From assembly GCA_003697105.1 (NCBI GenBank), contig RFFQ01000133.1:1-15677 (forward strand): DNA of 15,677 bases, read 5' to 3'. Under the pieces are notes generated by a model. The model did no database searches. It saw nothing but the letters and a program-made list of their open reading frames with translations, and was not told the DNA's origin. Within the stretch, counting starts at the first letter, position 1. Every line of letters begins with the position of its first letter. The position numbers and the translations under genes are program-made. This DNA is from Gemmatimonadota bacterium (lineage in GTDB: Bacteria; 4572-55; J002). Positions 1 to 5,846 of this stretch are shown here, one piece after another.

Positions 1-91
1 CATCTGCGGAGGATTCTTCCGGTGCGGTATCGTCCCTTTGGGGTTCAACAGCGGGGGATTCTCCACGCTCAACGTCATCTGCGGAGGATTC
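1..91 (-). repeat. Imperfect in-frame repeat encoding an acidic TAPE(E)SSAD tail
   Basis: A 16-base block is identical at 1-16 and 76-91, 75 bases (25 codons) apart, and similarity continues a few bases further, with one copy carrying an extra Glu codon. It encodes the repeated acidic unit in the tail of the coiled-coil protein. More copies may lie beyond the window edge. Confidence 0.6.
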
Positions 92-1102
92 CGGCGCGGT
101 TTCATCCGCTACAGGGGTTTGGTTGTCTTCCTCTGCTTCACGGATCACCCGCGCAATTTTTTCTTCCAGACCCGCGTTGGTTTTCTGAATATCTTCAATT
201 TTATTCCGCTTTTCCTGAATCCAGTTCTGCGCTCGTTCCACAAAATTATCCGACCATGCGGTCTCAATATCTTTTTCCAACTCGATAATCTGTTGTTCCA
301 ACCGGTAAATGACATCTTTATTTTTGGCGATTAAGGCTTGCCAGCGATCAATATGTTCCATCTGGCGTTGTTTCCATACTTTATCCCGTCGTTGTCGGTC
401 CGAGCGAATTTGGTCAATCCGCTCATTTGCCCGATCCCAAGCGGCATTGAGCGTTTTGCGCAGTTTTTCGCGTTGGGCGCGCCCTAAATATAGCGTTTTG
501 AATTCCGATTGAATTTGTTTGATGGTATTGAGCACGGCATACGGATCCTCGGTTTCCGCTTGTTCGCGGATCGCTGTGGCGCGGCGGTTGGCATCTTCAA
601 AGGTTTGGTTCCACATTTCTTCGCGACGCATTTTCCAGAGGTCATTCACATCTCGCCATTGCTTCCAGCAGACATCTTTATCTTCTTTGAACATCCGAAC
701 GTGGTCGCCTTCATGTTCTACCGGTACTCCTTCGGTGAGCCATTTGAGGGCTTCGTTCAGCAGGTCTTTTGCGCCTCGAATATCGGCACCATTTTCGGCG
801 GAATTGAGTTTTGCCACGGCCTCATGGATTTTTGTCTCGATTTTCTCCCGTTGTTGGAAGGATCCCAACTGCCGGATTTGCATCAATTCTTCGTGTTCTG
901 TGCGCGTTTCTTCACACAGATTGCTAAATTTGTCCCACAGGCGTTCCCGGTCTTCTCGCAACAAGTGACCGGCATCTTTAAACATTTGAGAGATTTTGCG
1001 AGCATCGACCCAAAATTCACCGTATTTTCGGTCATGTTGTTCCAGTTCGAGAATCGCCTGTTCAATCTGTTCCGCCGTGACCGGCGTTTTTTGCTCAGAC
1101 AT
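1..1102 (-). CDS. Coiled-coil protein with DUF349-like helical segments (partial, runs off the left edge)
   Basis: An open frame runs without a stop from an ATG at 1102 to the window edge (367 codons), preceded by an AGGAG ribosome site 10 bases upstream. The product is highly charged and helical, rich in Glu, Lys, Arg, Gln and Trp. It has several units of the kind W-x-x-x-R-x-x-x-LW-x-x-F, for example FKDAGHLLREDRERLWDKF at about residues 41-59 and WRDVNDLWKMRREEMW near 155-170, which recall DUF349 repeats. No signal peptide or membrane segment is visible, so it is probably cytoplasmic. After about residue 325 it turns into an acidic, low-complexity tail with a repeated TAPE(E)SSAD unit. It follows the decarboxylase gene after 92 bases that contain a hairpin, so it may be the last gene of that unit or be partly uncoupled from it. 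Function unknown; the DUF349 assignment is by eye. Confidence 0.8.
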   Translation of the reverse strand, partial: MSEQKTPVTAEQIEQAILELEQHDRKYGEFWVDARKISQMFKDAGHLLREDRERLWDKFSNLCEETRTEHEELMQIRQLGSFQQREKIETKIHEAVAKLNSAENGADIRGAKDLLNEALKWLTEGVPVEHEGDHVRMFKEDKDVCWKQWRDVNDLWKMRREEMWNQTFEDANRRATAIREQAETEDPYAVLNTIKQIQSEFKTLYLGRAQREKLRKTLNAAWDRANERIDQIRSDRQRRDKVWKQRQMEHIDRWQALIAKNKDVIYRLEQQIIELEKDIETAWSDNFVERAQNWIQEKRNKIEDIQKTNAGLEEKIARVIREAEEDNQTPVADETAPESSADDVERGESPAVEPQRDDTAPEESSAD

Positions 1103-1194: not shown

Positions 1195-2604
1195 TTATCT
1201 AACCGCACCGGTTGGTGCGTGTGAAGTGTCTAATGTATCAAATTTCAATCGTTCTGGCAACCGTTCTCTTTGGTCAATATCGTTCAAATCTTCTTTTTCC
1301 CGAATCACATCCACCTGACCGGCATCCCCAATCAAGACCACATTGGGGCGATATTCAATAAATTGCATCCACTGGGTCACATTGTATGCTCCCACCGGTG
1401 AGAAGATCAAGCGGGTTCCCCGGTCCAAGGGGGGCAAAAGTGAGCCTTCATCGATAATGTCAATATTCATACACAGGGGACCATAAATGACGGCGGGTTC
1501 ATTAACCCCTTGTATTTCGCGATCCAGTTCAATCGTATATTTATACCAGTAGGAGGTGTACAGCAAGTTCACGCCGGCATCCGCTACATAGGAACGGCGC
1601 CCATCTGGCAGGCGTTTTGTCGCAACAACAGAGGTGATTAGATACCCCGCCTCATCGATAAGCCACCGGCCCGACTCTAAAAAGAGGCGTGGAAAATCAC
1701 CCGGTCGCAAATGGCGATAGAGGGCATCGGTGATCCGCTCGGCATAGTCATCAATTGGCGAAATCGCTACCTCCGGCGGTAGATACATCCCTTTGAGGCG
1801 GCTCTTGGAGGGGAAACCACCGCCAATATCCAGATATTCGATCTTAAAACCAAATTGGTCTTCCAGTTCGTAAGCAAAGCACACCATTTTTTCCACTTCT
1901 CGCGCATACGCCGAGGGGTCTAAAATGTACGTCCCAATGTGGCAATGCAACCCGTTGATCGCTATTTTGCCGCCGCTGGCAATCCGTTTGACGGCATCCA
2001 TTGCTTGCCCAGAATCCAGATTTAGCCCAAAACGTGACCACTGGGGATGGATGCCGGTATCCATGTTCAACCGGATGCCGATTTTCACGGGTTTACCCCA
2101 AGCATCTGCTACCCGCTCTATATCATAAATTTCATCAAAATGATCCAGGTTCACCATTGCCCCTTCACTTAACGCTTTTTGGAGAGCAAATGGTGACTTA
2201 AACGGGCCATTAAAAATAATGTCCTTCCCTTCGACTCCCAGCCGGCGCGCTTTGTCGTACTCCATTTCGGAGACCACTTCAGCAATGGAGCCTTCTTGGT
2301 GCATAATGGCACAAATTGCCTGCAAATAGTTGGTTTTGTACGACCAGCCAAAGGTAACATGGGGATAACGCGTGTTGAACGCCGTGAACATCTCCCGGTA
2401 GCGGCGGCGAAGTGTTGCCTCTGAATAGACAAACAACGGCGAACCAAATTGTGAAACCAACTGGTCAATACTGACTCCGTCAATGTCCTTCCGAATCTTC
2501 CGGGCATAATACGGACTGCTACCAAATTTGTTCATAAAACCGCTTTCCAACTTGATAAACACCGGTTTTTCATAGATTTTTTTCATGCCCATATCCTTTT
2601 CCAT
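1195..2604 (-). CDS. Diaminopimelate decarboxylase-like PLP enzyme (fold type III), divergent specificity
   Basis: The protein (469 aa) has the alanine-racemase-like barrel and C-terminal beta domain of the LysA/ornithine decarboxylase family. Visible landmarks are the PLP lysine K90 in YKTNYL, HCHIG at 220-224, the phosphate-binding GGGFP at 261-265, ESGR at 310-313 (EPGR in LysA), the catalytic-type Cys378 in GPLCMNID, and GAYN at 405-408. In true LysA the Cys motif reads CESGD; here it is CMNID, so I infer that the substrate is not meso-diaminopimelate but another amino acid or an amino acid conjugate. About 35 residues precede the usual N-terminus. The ATG at 2604 abuts the stop of the ATP-grasp gene; the ATG at 2586, with AAGGA 7 bases upstream, is an alternative start. 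Clearly the partner of the ATP-grasp and PqqD-like genes. Family is sure, substrate unknown. Confidence 0.88.
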   Translation of the reverse strand: MEKDMGMKKIYEKPVFIKLESGFMNKFGSSPYYARKIRKDIDGVSIDQLVSQFGSPLFVYSEATLRRRYREMFTAFNTRYPHVTFGWSYKTNYLQAICAIMHQEGSIAEVVSEMEYDKARRLGVEGKDIIFNGPFKSPFALQKALSEGAMVNLDHFDEIYDIERVADAWGKPVKIGIRLNMDTGIHPQWSRFGLNLDSGQAMDAVKRIASGGKIAINGLHCHIGTYILDPSAYAREVEKMVCFAYELEDQFGFKIEYLDIGGGFPSKSRLKGMYLPPEVAISPIDDYAERITDALYRHLRPGDFPRLFLESGRWLIDEAGYLITSVVATKRLPDGRRSYVADAGVNLLYTSYWYKYTIELDREIQGVNEPAVIYGPLCMNIDIIDEGSLLPPLDRGTRLIFSPVGAYNVTQWMQFIEYRPNVVLIGDAGQVDVIREKEDLNDIDQRERLPERLKFDTLDTSHAPTGAVR

Positions 2605-3642
2605 CTAGTTTTCACCCTGAGTCGTTATTTTCTGGAACATCTGCATATCCGTAACCAGCTCATCGGTGTAACGGATATACAGTTTGCCGGGGTCATAATC
2701 GAAGGTGGCCGGTAAAGGCAACTGGTAAATCTTACGGATGATATTCGCCGGAAGGTTGACTCCGACCCCAGTCGCAAAATATGACCATGCGGGAAAACGC
2801 GGATTGATTTCAATCAGATAAACCGTATCGCCATCGACCATACATTCCATTTCCAGTGGTCCCTTCCAACGATACCGCCGGATAAAGTTGGCTGTGACGT
2901 CTCGCATTCGCTCATTTTTGATGGTCACGCCCGTCCATATTTTACCCAGTGAGGTAATCCACATTTTTTTGATACCCACCTGCCCGAGCAACTCACCCTG
3001 CCCATCACCGACCGCCACAACGTTCATCTCTTCGCCAAAGACCATCCCTTGGACGATAACCGGGTAGCCCCATTCGGCAACCAACTTGTGATAATGCGCC
3101 ACCGCTTCCTGATAGGTATAGGCTTTGTACGCCTTATAGAAAGCACCTTTAACCATCACCGGCAAACCGATCCGCTCTACGGCACGGTGCAGTTCTGCCA
3201 GCGAGGTTACCACCTTTGTGGGGGGAATACTCACCTGAATGGCCTCTGCAATATCAGCCAACCGGTCTTTGCCACGCAAGTTAAATTGATCCAAGGTTGG
3301 CAGGAACGTACGAATGCCCAGCGCTGCTATTTCGTGCTGGTATTTGGTAAAAAAGGGCAATTCTGCATCTAAACACGGCAAAACCACATCCAGCCCATAA
3401 CTGTGTTTGATGTAGTGCAACCGTTGCAAATATGCCTCCGCATCCGCGGAGGGATAGGGCATAATGAATGCCTTATTGATAACCCAATCCATGTAGATGC
3501 CCGGCTCCTGAGTGTCGTATGCCAAACCCACAACATGGACCTTGAGATCGGGGTCTTCGTGCAAACTGCGGGCAACGCCTACCCCCGGACCCGGATTATC
3601 CACCGCATTAATCCCAGAAATACCCACATAGATTTCTGCCAT
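2605..3642 (-). CDS. ATP-grasp ligase (carbamoyl-phosphate synthase/biotin carboxylase-like)
   Basis: The protein (345 aa) has an ATP-grasp layout: a Gly-rich N-terminal pre-ATP-grasp segment (GINAVDNPGPGVGVA, about 10-24), NLRGKDRL with K125, the second ATP-contacting lysine in VMVKG (K165), and the Mg-binding region with E266 and the final EINPRF block (E278, N280, R282). ATP-grasp enzymes couple ATP cleavage to joining a carboxylate with an amine or thiol through an acyl phosphate. I do not recognise the acceptor. It starts at an ATG with AAAGGAG 6 bases upstream, 26 bases after the PqqD-like gene, and its TAG stop directly abuts the decarboxylase ATG. That layout implies coordinated translation. 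It lacks the other domains of biotin carboxylase or CarB, so it is a stand-alone ligase. An amino-acid or peptide ligase role is inference. Confidence 0.88.
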   Translation of the reverse strand: MAEIYVGISGINAVDNPGPGVGVARSLHEDPDLKVHVVGLAYDTQEPGIYMDWVINKAFIMPYPSADAEAYLQRLHYIKHSYGLDVVLPCLDAELPFFTKYQHEIAALGIRTFLPTLDQFNLRGKDRLADIAEAIQVSIPPTKVVTSLAELHRAVERIGLPVMVKGAFYKAYKAYTYQEAVAHYHKLVAEWGYPVIVQGMVFGEEMNVVAVGDGQGELLGQVGIKKMWITSLGKIWTGVTIKNERMRDVTANFIRRYRWKGPLEMECMVDGDTVYLIEINPRFPAWSYFATGVGVNLPANIIRKIYQLPLPATFDYDPGKLYIRYTDELVTDMQMFQKITTQGEN

Positions 3643-3668
3643 ACATGCTCCTTTCCAGCTTCCAGCCG

Positions 3669-3905
3669 CTAGATCAACTTGTGGGTCCGTAAAACATCTA
3701 TAAAATCATTGATGTCCCGTTCCGCGTCTTCGGGTTGGACTTCAAAATCTGCACAGAGGTCTTCGACAATTTGCGATGGTGATTTTTGGGCGCGCAAGCC
3801 TTGCAGGATAGTCAAGCCGGTGGGGTTGGTCGTGAAGCTTTCACCTGTCGTTGGATCAAACACAAAACCTTCATCATTTATTGCCAATTGGTGCAGCCGG
3901 TTCAT
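3669..3905 (-). CDS. PqqD-like protein (stand-alone RiPP recognition element fold)
   Basis: This 78-aa protein resembles the PqqD family: a short beta hairpin first (LAINDEGFVFDPTTGESFTTN), then the conserved NPTGLTILQGL segment and a C-terminal winged-helix part (IVEDLCADFEV ... DINDFIDVLRTHKLI). PqqD proteins bind the leader of a peptide substrate and present it to a modifying enzyme. The same fold also occurs in systems without a known peptide. The ATG at 3905 has AAAGGAG 6 bases upstream; the same GGAAAGGAG block precedes the ATP-grasp gene. It heads the three-gene cassette with the ATP-grasp ligase and the PLP decarboxylase, which suggests it is their substrate-presenting partner. No short ORF that looks like a precursor was found next to it. 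Confidence 0.82.
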   Translation of the reverse strand: MNRLHQLAINDEGFVFDPTTGESFTTNPTGLTILQGLRAQKSPSQIVEDLCADFEVQPEDAERDINDFIDVLRTHKLI

Positions 3906-3957: not shown

Positions 3958-4512
3958 CTAATCAAGTTCGTTATGGTGCTTCTCATGTTCGTCGGGGTCT
4001 TCCTTGGAGTCTTCTTGTTGAAGAGTGACCGTTAGCGAACCGGTCTGTTTGACCCCGGTATTCGCCGGAGGTTTAATCCCCGCTTCGTGTAGCCTCATCG
4101 ACCATGTTTTAATGGTCTCTTTTTGGGAGTCATTTAACTTTGCGTCTGGATGTAGGGGCAGATAGATTGCTAGGGGCATTTTGCCTTCTGCGACTTCTTC
4201 CCAAATTTCCTCCGCCAAATCGATCTGTTCTTCTGCATCCATTAGACCCCATTCCGAAAAATTGAGATATTCCCTGCCGTGATTGACATCCCGCGCTACC
4301 AACCACGAGACCGGAGCAATTTTACTGTACCAGGGCCACACCGTTTCATGGGAATGGCAATCATAACAAGATGTTTTAAAGATCGATTTGACACCGGGGG
4401 GAGCCTCTAAATCCGCCCGAACAACCGGATTTGTGCGCTCCACCGGCACAAATTGAATCCCGATAAACCCAAGCCCCAAAAGGACAACCATAATGCGTAA
4501 TAGTGCTTTCAT
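3958..4512 (-). CDS. Membrane-anchored heme-binding domain protein (CxxCH)
   Basis: A 184-aa protein with an N-terminal hydrophobic signal or anchor (about 3-22; no lipobox Cys) and a single c-type heme motif CYDCH (C49, C52, H53), followed by SHETVWPWYSKIAPVSWLV. This pattern is typical of the small haem-binding domain family found in many Gram-negative phyla. M112 in GKMPLAIY is a possible distal ligand. The last 35 residues are an added polar tail rich in Glu, Asp and His. The protein should sit on the outer face of the inner membrane. Its ATG overlaps the cyclase stop by four bases (ATGA), so the two are translationally coupled, pointing to a joint function such as redox or gas sensing feeding the cyclase. 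That last step is inference. Confidence 0.83.
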   Translation of the reverse strand: MKALLRIMVVLLGLGFIGIQFVPVERTNPVVRADLEAPPGVKSIFKTSCYDCHSHETVWPWYSKIAPVSWLVARDVNHGREYLNFSEWGLMDAEEQIDLAEEIWEEVAEGKMPLAIYLPLHPDAKLNDSQKETIKTWSMRLHEAGIKPPANTGVKQTGSLTVTLQQEDSKEDPDEHEKHHNELD

Positions 4513-5846
4513 ACCCTCTCCTCCACTGAGCCCTCGATATGGGTAATAACAAAAAGGGTAAAATCCCCGCTTTTTCCTTTAATTTGAATGTTTTCCAAGG
4601 TTTCTGTTTGTACCGGCAGGGTTAATCGATTTCGGACAGCTTGACTTACAATAACTTGACCGGGTTTGGCAATGGATTCCAGACGAGAGGCAAAATTGAC
4701 CGTATCTCCAATGACGGTGTAATTCATGCGGTCTGGGGAGCCGATATTACCCACAATCGCCTCACCGCAATGGATGCCAATCCCTAGGGAAATGGGAAGG
4801 TCAACATCTTGTTGTTTTGCCTCCCGCAAGTATGCCGCAAAGATTTTCTGCATTTTCAAGGCGGCACGGACTGCGCGTTCCGTATCATCCGGTTTGCGGA
4901 TCAGGGCACCGAAAACCACCATCACACTGTCTCCAATAAATTTATCAATCGTTCCGCCAAATTCGTGAATGACACCGGTCATTTTTGAGAAAATCTGGTT
5001 CAGAATACGCACCACGTGTTCCGGTGAGGTTTGTTCTGAGAATGCCGTAAACCCCCGAATATCCGCAAAAAGCACGGTTACATCCTGCTTAATACCACCT
5101 AATTGGATCTGACCCGGTTGTTTGAGGATCGTCTGCGCCACTTCCGGCGAGACGTAGTTCCCGAAGATCGTCTTCAGTTGATCCTGTTCAGCTTGTTGGG
5201 TTTCAATCCGTTTACCTGCCTGATTGACGATGACACCCAGCAAGAGAAACAACATCCCCGAGCCTAGGGTCAGCACCACACTGACCCGCCAGACGACAGC
5301 CCCGATTTCCCGGTCCATCCCTTCTAACGATTGGTCTAGCACCAGAACGTAGCGCACGGTATCGTCAATGGCAATCGGCTGCCCGGTACAGATCACATGA
5401 TGCCCGTACTCCTTTTGGGTGCGCTCCTCGACAAACAACGTGCCGGCTAACGGAATTGTCGCTTCTTCATCTGTTTCGGTTTGCCCCAGTTCATCTGTTT
5501 CCAAACTGGCGATGATCTCCTGTGCCGCATTGACAACCAGCGCTTCGGTTATCTCTTTGTCTTCCGCAATATCTTCCAAATAATCCTGCACCTTAGCCAA
5601 AAAAGCATCTTCCGTTAAATGTCTTTGATGATATTGGAGTGCCGCTTCTCGGACCAAATCACCGATAAATTCAGATAGATATAACGCATTTTCCTGTGTG
5701 CGAGCGGTGATCTGCTGAATTTGAATGCGCGTAATCACGACCACCGTGATCGCAATAATCAGCAAGGAGACCAACGCTCCTCGCAGAAAAAATTGTGTTA
5801 ATAACTGCCGGCGATATGAATATACCATGAACTTTTGCATCTCCAT
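4509..5846 (-). CDS. Membrane-bound class III adenylate cyclase
   Basis: The 445-aa protein has a TM helix at about 20-39, an extracytoplasmic sensor segment (40-185) with no cysteines except C153, a second TM helix at about 185-208, a short linker, and a class III cyclase domain (about 252-440). The metal-binding aspartates are D262 (FADIRGF) and D306 (IGDSVMVVFG). K302 and D381 match the adenine-recognising pair, and N384 and R388 in DTVNFASRLE match the transition-state residues, so the enzyme looks active and specific for ATP, making cAMP. No HAMP domain is obvious. Start codon is uncertain: ATGs at 5846, 5840 and 5828 are in frame, with GGAAG upstream of the first. It is coupled to the heme-protein gene by ATGA. 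The AMP nucleosidase gene lies 92 bases upstream. Confidence 0.9.
   Translation of the reverse strand: MEMQKFMVYSYRRQLLTQFFLRGALVSLLIIAITVVVITRIQIQQITARTQENALYLSEFIGDLVREAALQYHQRHLTEDAFLAKVQDYLEDIAEDKEITEALVVNAAQEIIASLETDELGQTETDEEATIPLAGTLFVEERTQKEYGHHVICTGQPIAIDDTVRYVLVLDQSLEGMDREIGAVVWRVSVVLTLGSGMLFLLLGVIVNQAGKRIETQQAEQDQLKTIFGNYVSPEVAQTILKQPGQIQLGGIKQDVTVLFADIRGFTAFSEQTSPEHVVRILNQIFSKMTGVIHEFGGTIDKFIGDSVMVVFGALIRKPDDTERAVRAALKMQKIFAAYLREAKQQDVDLPISLGIGIHCGEAIVGNIGSPDRMNYTVIGDTVNFASRLESIAKPGQVIVSQAVRNRLTLPVQTETLENIQIKGKSGDFTLFVITHIEGSVEERV

Follow-up and report, generated by a model that had tools for sequence, protein, structure and literature searches.

A conserved gene cassette in which a discrete RiPP recognition protein accompanies a decarboxylase bearing a leader-type motif

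The established role of RiPP recognition elements (RREs) is to read precursor peptides. The locus described here raises the question of what such a protein would read when it is encoded beside an ATP-grasp ligase and a PLP-dependent decarboxylase. The DNA analysed (the window) is a stretch of 15,677 nucleotides of contig RFFQ01000133.1, with the following features:

3669..3905, minus strand: PqqD-like discrete RiPP recognition element, 78 aa (ORF list and PF05402)
2605..3642, minus strand: ATP-grasp ligase of the CPSase-like type, 345 aa (ORF and family scan; E-x-N-P-R invariant)
1195..2604, minus strand: alanine-racemase-fold PLP decarboxylase with a putative FigC-like pocket (C378-M379); likelier start at 2586
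2521..2574, minus strand: lasso-type leader motif in the decarboxylase N-terminus, Y11-E-K-P14-V-F16 ... N25-K26-F27-G28, in a tail that precedes the enzyme fold and is predicted to be disordered
1..1102, minus strand: lineage-specific charged ORF on the decarboxylase side of the urea-transporter gene, running off the contig end and continuing on contig C51

The three-gene locus and its distribution

The three genes are arranged head to tail on the minus strand in the order PqqD-like protein, ATP-grasp ligase and decarboxylase, with gaps of 26 and 0 bases, and the ORF coordinates together with the Pfam and NCBIfam scans agree with the position, tight spacing and family names given in a preliminary description of this DNA. 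Matching strong ribosome sites had also been described for all three genes; this is true of the PqqD-like and ATP-grasp genes, both preceded by GGAAAGGAG, but the decarboxylase has a weak site at its annotated start. An ATG at 2586 is likelier to be the start of this gene than the annotated 2604, since homologues begin MKK-YEKP and AAGGA lies 7 bases upstream of that ATG. Directly upstream of the trio on the same strand (3958-5846), the window encodes a haem-binding-domain protein and an adenylate/guanylate cyclase, which were not found beside the cassette in the other loci.

A scan of GTDB genomes for the ATP-grasp protein returned 20 loci in eight named phyla: Calditrichota, Aquificota (Persephonella and relatives), Gemmatimonadota, Nitrospinota, Planctomycetota, Verrucomicrobiota, Campylobacterota (Desulfurellales, Hippea) and Pseudomonadota (Cellvibrionaceae). 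Wherever the contig permits, the order of the three genes is kept in 20/20 independent loci, in nearly all of them with no more than a few tens of bases between genes, and the proteins are 38-64% (PqqD), 56-68% (ATP-grasp) and 63-73% (decarboxylase) identical to those of the window. As the same order recurs in all 20 independent loci, the arrangement is beyond chance. The trio had been proposed as a possible new biosynthetic system, with non-conservation named as the observation that would speak against it, and the scan gave the opposite result. The cassette occurs in at least nine phyla if the phylum of the window differs from these eight; the single other genome of the window's phylum in the searchable set has no ATP-grasp gene. 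Of 398 Pseudomonadota genomes drawn evenly, 37 had the ATP-grasp gene, and in the loci fetched from this phylum the PqqD and decarboxylase genes adjoin it except at contig ends. No plasmid-borne relatives were found at E 1e-30.

Two further settings were observed in this survey. Conserved ORFs of about 1026 aa (RND-pump size) and about 160 aa precede the PqqD gene in four Aquificota loci (L007, L009, L011 and L024). In the gammaproteobacterial loci L097 (6974-7789), L092, L090 and L088, a longer protein (about 270 aa) ends in the PqqD domain and begins with a TetR-type helix-turn-helix (HTH), above the Pfam cut-off in L097; its domains mark it as a regulator joined to a recognition element.

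A six-gene cassette with a urea-transporter/M23 fusion

The trio had been described as a cassette. It is indeed a conserved one, but three more genes belong to it: the first encodes a fusion of a urea transporter (UT) with an M23 peptidase, the second a putative barrel of the outer membrane, and the third a TPR protein. The gene next after the decarboxylase in 17 loci encodes the fusion (about 690 residues), in which a PF03253 domain (215 bits against a cut-off of 25, in the homologue from L006) is joined to an M23 peptidase domain. In many loci it is followed by a protein of about 300 residues and then by a TPR protein of about 205 residues. The protein of about 300 residues has no Pfam match, and its putative assignment as an outer-membrane barrel was read from its sequence. 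Gammaproteobacterial loci contain the same six genes, for the most part arranged alike (PqqD, ATP-grasp, decarboxylase, UT-M23, barrel, TPR). The fusion was found in 17/17 trio genomes searched, even where it is not adjacent, and among the 398 Pseudomonadota genomes 36 have the fusion and 32 have both it and the ATP-grasp gene (Fisher p=1.5e-37, phylogeny not corrected for).

The periplasmic part of the fusion is modelled with confidence (AF2 pLDDT 92) and matches LytM/M23 structures at Z ~14, and the residues TH..DF, H and PHxH (His/Asp/His) are invariant in 20 aligned copies. From the confident fold, the structural match and these residues, the peptidase site looks intact; a degenerate M23 domain with a broken metal site was rejected on the same invariant residues. 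Fold comparison of the C-terminal beta domain gave nothing beyond weak resemblance (Z ~9) to a lipid-transfer protein and to a YmcC-like protein. The fusion shares the PF03253 match and retained LPF motifs with bacterial urea transporters, but differs from them in carrying the peptidase and C-terminal beta domains, and falls under the cut-off of the Yut urea-transporter equivalog (111 vs 274.6). No description of such a fusion was found in the open-access literature.

The contig of the window stops inside the cassette, and contig C51 of the same genome holds the remainder. The last 75 bases of the window on the coding strand (window 1-75) are identical to the first 75 of C51 (L029 1-75). The fusion lies at the start of C51 (403-2478 of L029; 59% identical to the L006 copy), and the same contig carries the barrel (2453-3409) and the TPR gene (4709-5341). 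We infer the contig order C9-C51 from this 75-base overlap, which lies within a short repeat. Joining the contigs completes a 396-residue ORF between the decarboxylase and the fusion, with the barrel and TPR genes after. The assembly break coincides with a short repeat inside the charged ORF.

A leader-type motif on the decarboxylase and its putative reader

The PqqD-like protein matches PF05402 with 53.7 bits (cut-off 23.4), and the best PDB matches of its profile are the lasso RREs TfuB1 (E=8.6e-10) and TbiB1 (E=5.6e-9), in line with the earlier designation as a stand-alone RRE-type protein. The absence of a precursor ORF had also been reported. No conserved small ORF other than PqqD was found near the cassette in 33 loci, but a leader motif is present on the decarboxylase itself. 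All 50 decarboxylase tails contain [YW]x[KP]Px[I/L/F/M], with Tyr in first place in 25 and Trp in 25, and Pro always fourth. In 47/50 tails a Lys or Thr stands 12 residues past the Pro and a Gly 14 past it. The spacing is shorter by one residue in three W[ED]PP members, and Thr replaces the Lys in L085. These residues form part of N-K-F-G or a close variant, found in nearly all 50 tails at nearly fixed spacing, and the stretch downstream varies in length and sequence. When the columns of the tail alignment were shuffled, the motif appeared in at least 95% of rows in 33/20000 trials.

About 35 residues precede the enzyme fold, and because the LysA and FslC family models match only from residue 36-38, the tail is an addition to the enzyme. 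It is disordered in the AF2 model (pLDDT <50, residues 1-36), a model of moderate quality overall (mean 67.7). Discrete lasso RREs recognise [Y/W]xxPx[L/V/I/F/A] (Nat. Commun. 2026, PMC13381572), and in lasso leaders YxxPxL spans -17 to -12 with Thr at -2 and Gly at +1 (register Y-17 P-14 L-12 T-2 G+1; PMC10368454). The decarboxylase tails match this register, with Lys (Thr in L085) and Gly at the -2 and +1 places. Comparison of the tail with NCBIfam leader models gave no match, a result of little weight as the stretches are short. Judged from the alignments, the precursor-type signal is on the decarboxylase N-terminus rather than on a separate peptide.

It could be argued that the trio is a RiPP pathway whose precursor gene lies elsewhere, and that the decarboxylase bears the motif by coincidence or as a vestige. 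RREs normally serve precursor peptides, and the same genome has further RRE loci. However, the 33 loci hold no conserved small ORF near the cassette, and the motif is universal on the decarboxylase, with a Y/W exchange as in leader motifs. In addition, no N-terminal tag was seen in 17 start regions of LysA-like paralogues from cassette genomes (a few of them read out of frame), where the sole match to the pattern falls outside the stretch before the enzyme. We regard a distant precursor as improbable.

The leader contacts of LppB (N33, D70, F74, M78 and L83) align to N27, D64, F68, L72 and L77 of the PqqD-like protein, at a constant offset of six placed by hand. D64, whose LppB counterpart bonds the tyrosine, is present in 25/25 members with a Tyr tag, and the only members without it are five of the W[ED]PP (Trp-tag) kind. 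This pattern agrees with the published Tyr/Trp distinction, although the covariation of tag and groove involves two clades with one exception, and thus few independent events. L77 is not retained in the W-tag clade, so conservation of the groove is not universal. Together with the tail motif, these residues strongly suggest that the RRE binds the tail of the decarboxylase. The preliminary description had offered a further option, in which the PqqD-like protein itself serves as the carrier. Most of its invariant residues (L7, A8, G13, F16, P18, G21, D64, D67, F68 and L72) are those of the RRE fold or of the groove for the leader, neither a conserved Cys or Lys nor a phosphopantetheine site is seen, and this option was dropped.

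Two other places in the genome of the window encode PqqD-like domains. On contig C14 (L031, 2291-5324), a Cys-rich candidate precursor containing RYEKPTV lies beside a radical-SAM protein that ends in a PqqD domain, and close by are a chain-length-type gene, an ORF resembling HPr kinase and a possible nucleotidyltransferase; this is a candidate separate RiPP locus, in which the leader motif would occur in its ordinary setting. On contig C48 (L030, 1157-1895), a polysaccharide-export-like gene has two stand-alone PqqD-like ORFs, of 89 and 147 aa and next to each other, as neighbours, with no obvious maturase within the stretch read.

Enzyme chemistry, proposed function and comparison with known systems

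The decarboxylase scores 223.8 bits with the FslC model (NF041039, cut-off 500) and 216.5 with lysA (TIGR01048, cut-off 297.9), under the cut-off in both cases. By profile, its nearest PDB entry is N-citrylornithine decarboxylase (266 bits), followed by DAP decarboxylase (192), and the former is also the nearest by fold. In the cassette enzyme the catalytic Cys is followed by Met (C378-M379) and not by an acidic residue; FigC, an N-citrylornithine decarboxylase, has C354-M355, and the DAP, Orn and Arg enzymes are acidic at that place (PMC7857480). FigC, SbnH, AcsE, MccE and BtrK have been grouped as enzymes acting on modified or tethered amino acids rather than in polyamine synthesis (PMC7857480). 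The Met bears out the earlier view of a LysA-like enzyme with altered specificity. For the second enzyme, the match to the CPSase-like family and the invariant E-x-N-P-R, the canonical metal/ATP motif, confirm an ATP-grasp ligase.

The same data bear on whether the enzyme is no more than the housekeeping diaminopimelate decarboxylase, with incidental neighbours. The genome of the window gives this some room, as its 97% complete assembly has DapF but no canonical LysA above the cut-off, and the cassette enzyme is its only strong lysA-family match. Across the family, however, a separate LysA above the cut-off is present in 16/23 cassette genomes tested, the cassette enzymes reach only 200-235 bits against 297.9, and Met takes the place of the acidic residue. 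As most of these genomes have a canonical LysA of their own, the housekeeping role is rejected for the family, a rejection that does not cover the window's genome taken alone; overall we consider it very improbable.

It is probable, in our judgement, that a conserved cassette for biosynthesis and transport, which spans the envelope and reuses a RiPP recognition module, has its cytoplasmic half in the window. The PqqD-like RRE would bind the [YW]xxPx[IL] N-terminal tail of the decarboxylase instead of a free precursor peptide, and so bring this enzyme next to the ATP-grasp ligase. The ligase, judged by its family, would join an amino acid in amide or ester linkage, and the decarboxylase would then strip the acylated amino acid of its carboxylate, leaving a small amine. 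This product, or a related small polar solute, may be moved or sensed across the envelope by the urea-type channel-M23 fusion, the putative barrel and the exported TPR protein, a role suggested by the co-occurrence of these genes with the trio.

The tail may be a docking tag alone, or a site loaded by the ligase. If it were the true substrate, the RRE would present it, the ligase would ligate an amino acid (e.g. Lys/Thr at position 16), and the decarboxylase would act on the tethered amino acid in cis or in its dimer partner, as a BtrI/BtrJ/BtrK system built into one protein. The nearly fixed spacing of N-K-F-G in the 50 tails, which a simple docking tag does not need, is consistent with this, as is the action of the relative BtrK on a carrier-tethered amino acid (PMC7857480). 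On the other hand, the Lys is a Thr in L085, the spacing is one residue shorter in the three W[ED]PP members, and the second motif could equally touch the RRE or the ligase; the tail as substrate is therefore possible but unlikely. A fuller version seems likewise unlikely; in it the leader and core, both of RiPP type, are part of the enzyme, which decarboxylates the substrate tethered to itself, and release and transport follow through the urea-type channel/peptidase fusion.

The proposed assembly of enzymes by an RRE can be set against three described systems. With the RRE-leader module of lasso and LPP pathways (TfuB1/FusE, TbiB1, LppB, PbaB1), the cassette shares a discrete PqqD-like RRE, the [Y/W]xxPx[L/V/I/F/A] motif, the leader-contact Asn, Asp and Phe, and the register Y-17 P-14 L-12 x-2 G+1. 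In contrast to that module, the motif here is on a full-length catalytic enzyme and there is no core peptide; neither a B2 transglutaminase-like protease nor an Asn-synthetase-like cyclase is among the domains of the conserved cassette genes. Butirosin BtrI/BtrJ/BtrK likewise combines an ATP-grasp ligase, an alanine-racemase-fold decarboxylase and a small protein, but in the cassette the small protein is an RRE, in which no acyl-carrier domain or conserved attachment motif was seen, and the decarboxylase is nearer to FigC than to BtrK by profile (266 vs ~119 bits). FigC/FslC of rhizoferrin synthesis is the best PDB match by both sequence and fold and has the same Met beside the catalytic Cys; the cassette differs in having no NIS synthetase among its six genes, in the extra leader-like tail, and in its FslC score (223.8 vs 500 bits).

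The separate precursor gene of a RiPP cluster was not found near the cassette in the 33 loci. Since the cassette falls outside the definitions of a RiPP cluster, a lasso cluster, LysA, FslC and the butirosin trio, the arrangement would be of a new kind made from known parts, and we could not find a matching described system. The earlier statement that no pathway with this trio had been described agrees with a full-text search of the open-access literature, with subscription journals outside its scope, which found no description of the cassette.

If this reading is true, the RRE module also assembles enzymes, and the signal for its reader can be on a full-length metabolic enzyme, across phyla. 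It would also provide a rule for mining RRE genes that apparently have 'no precursor'. The link to the urea-transporter/M23 fusion points to a widespread small molecule or envelope process that has yet to be described.
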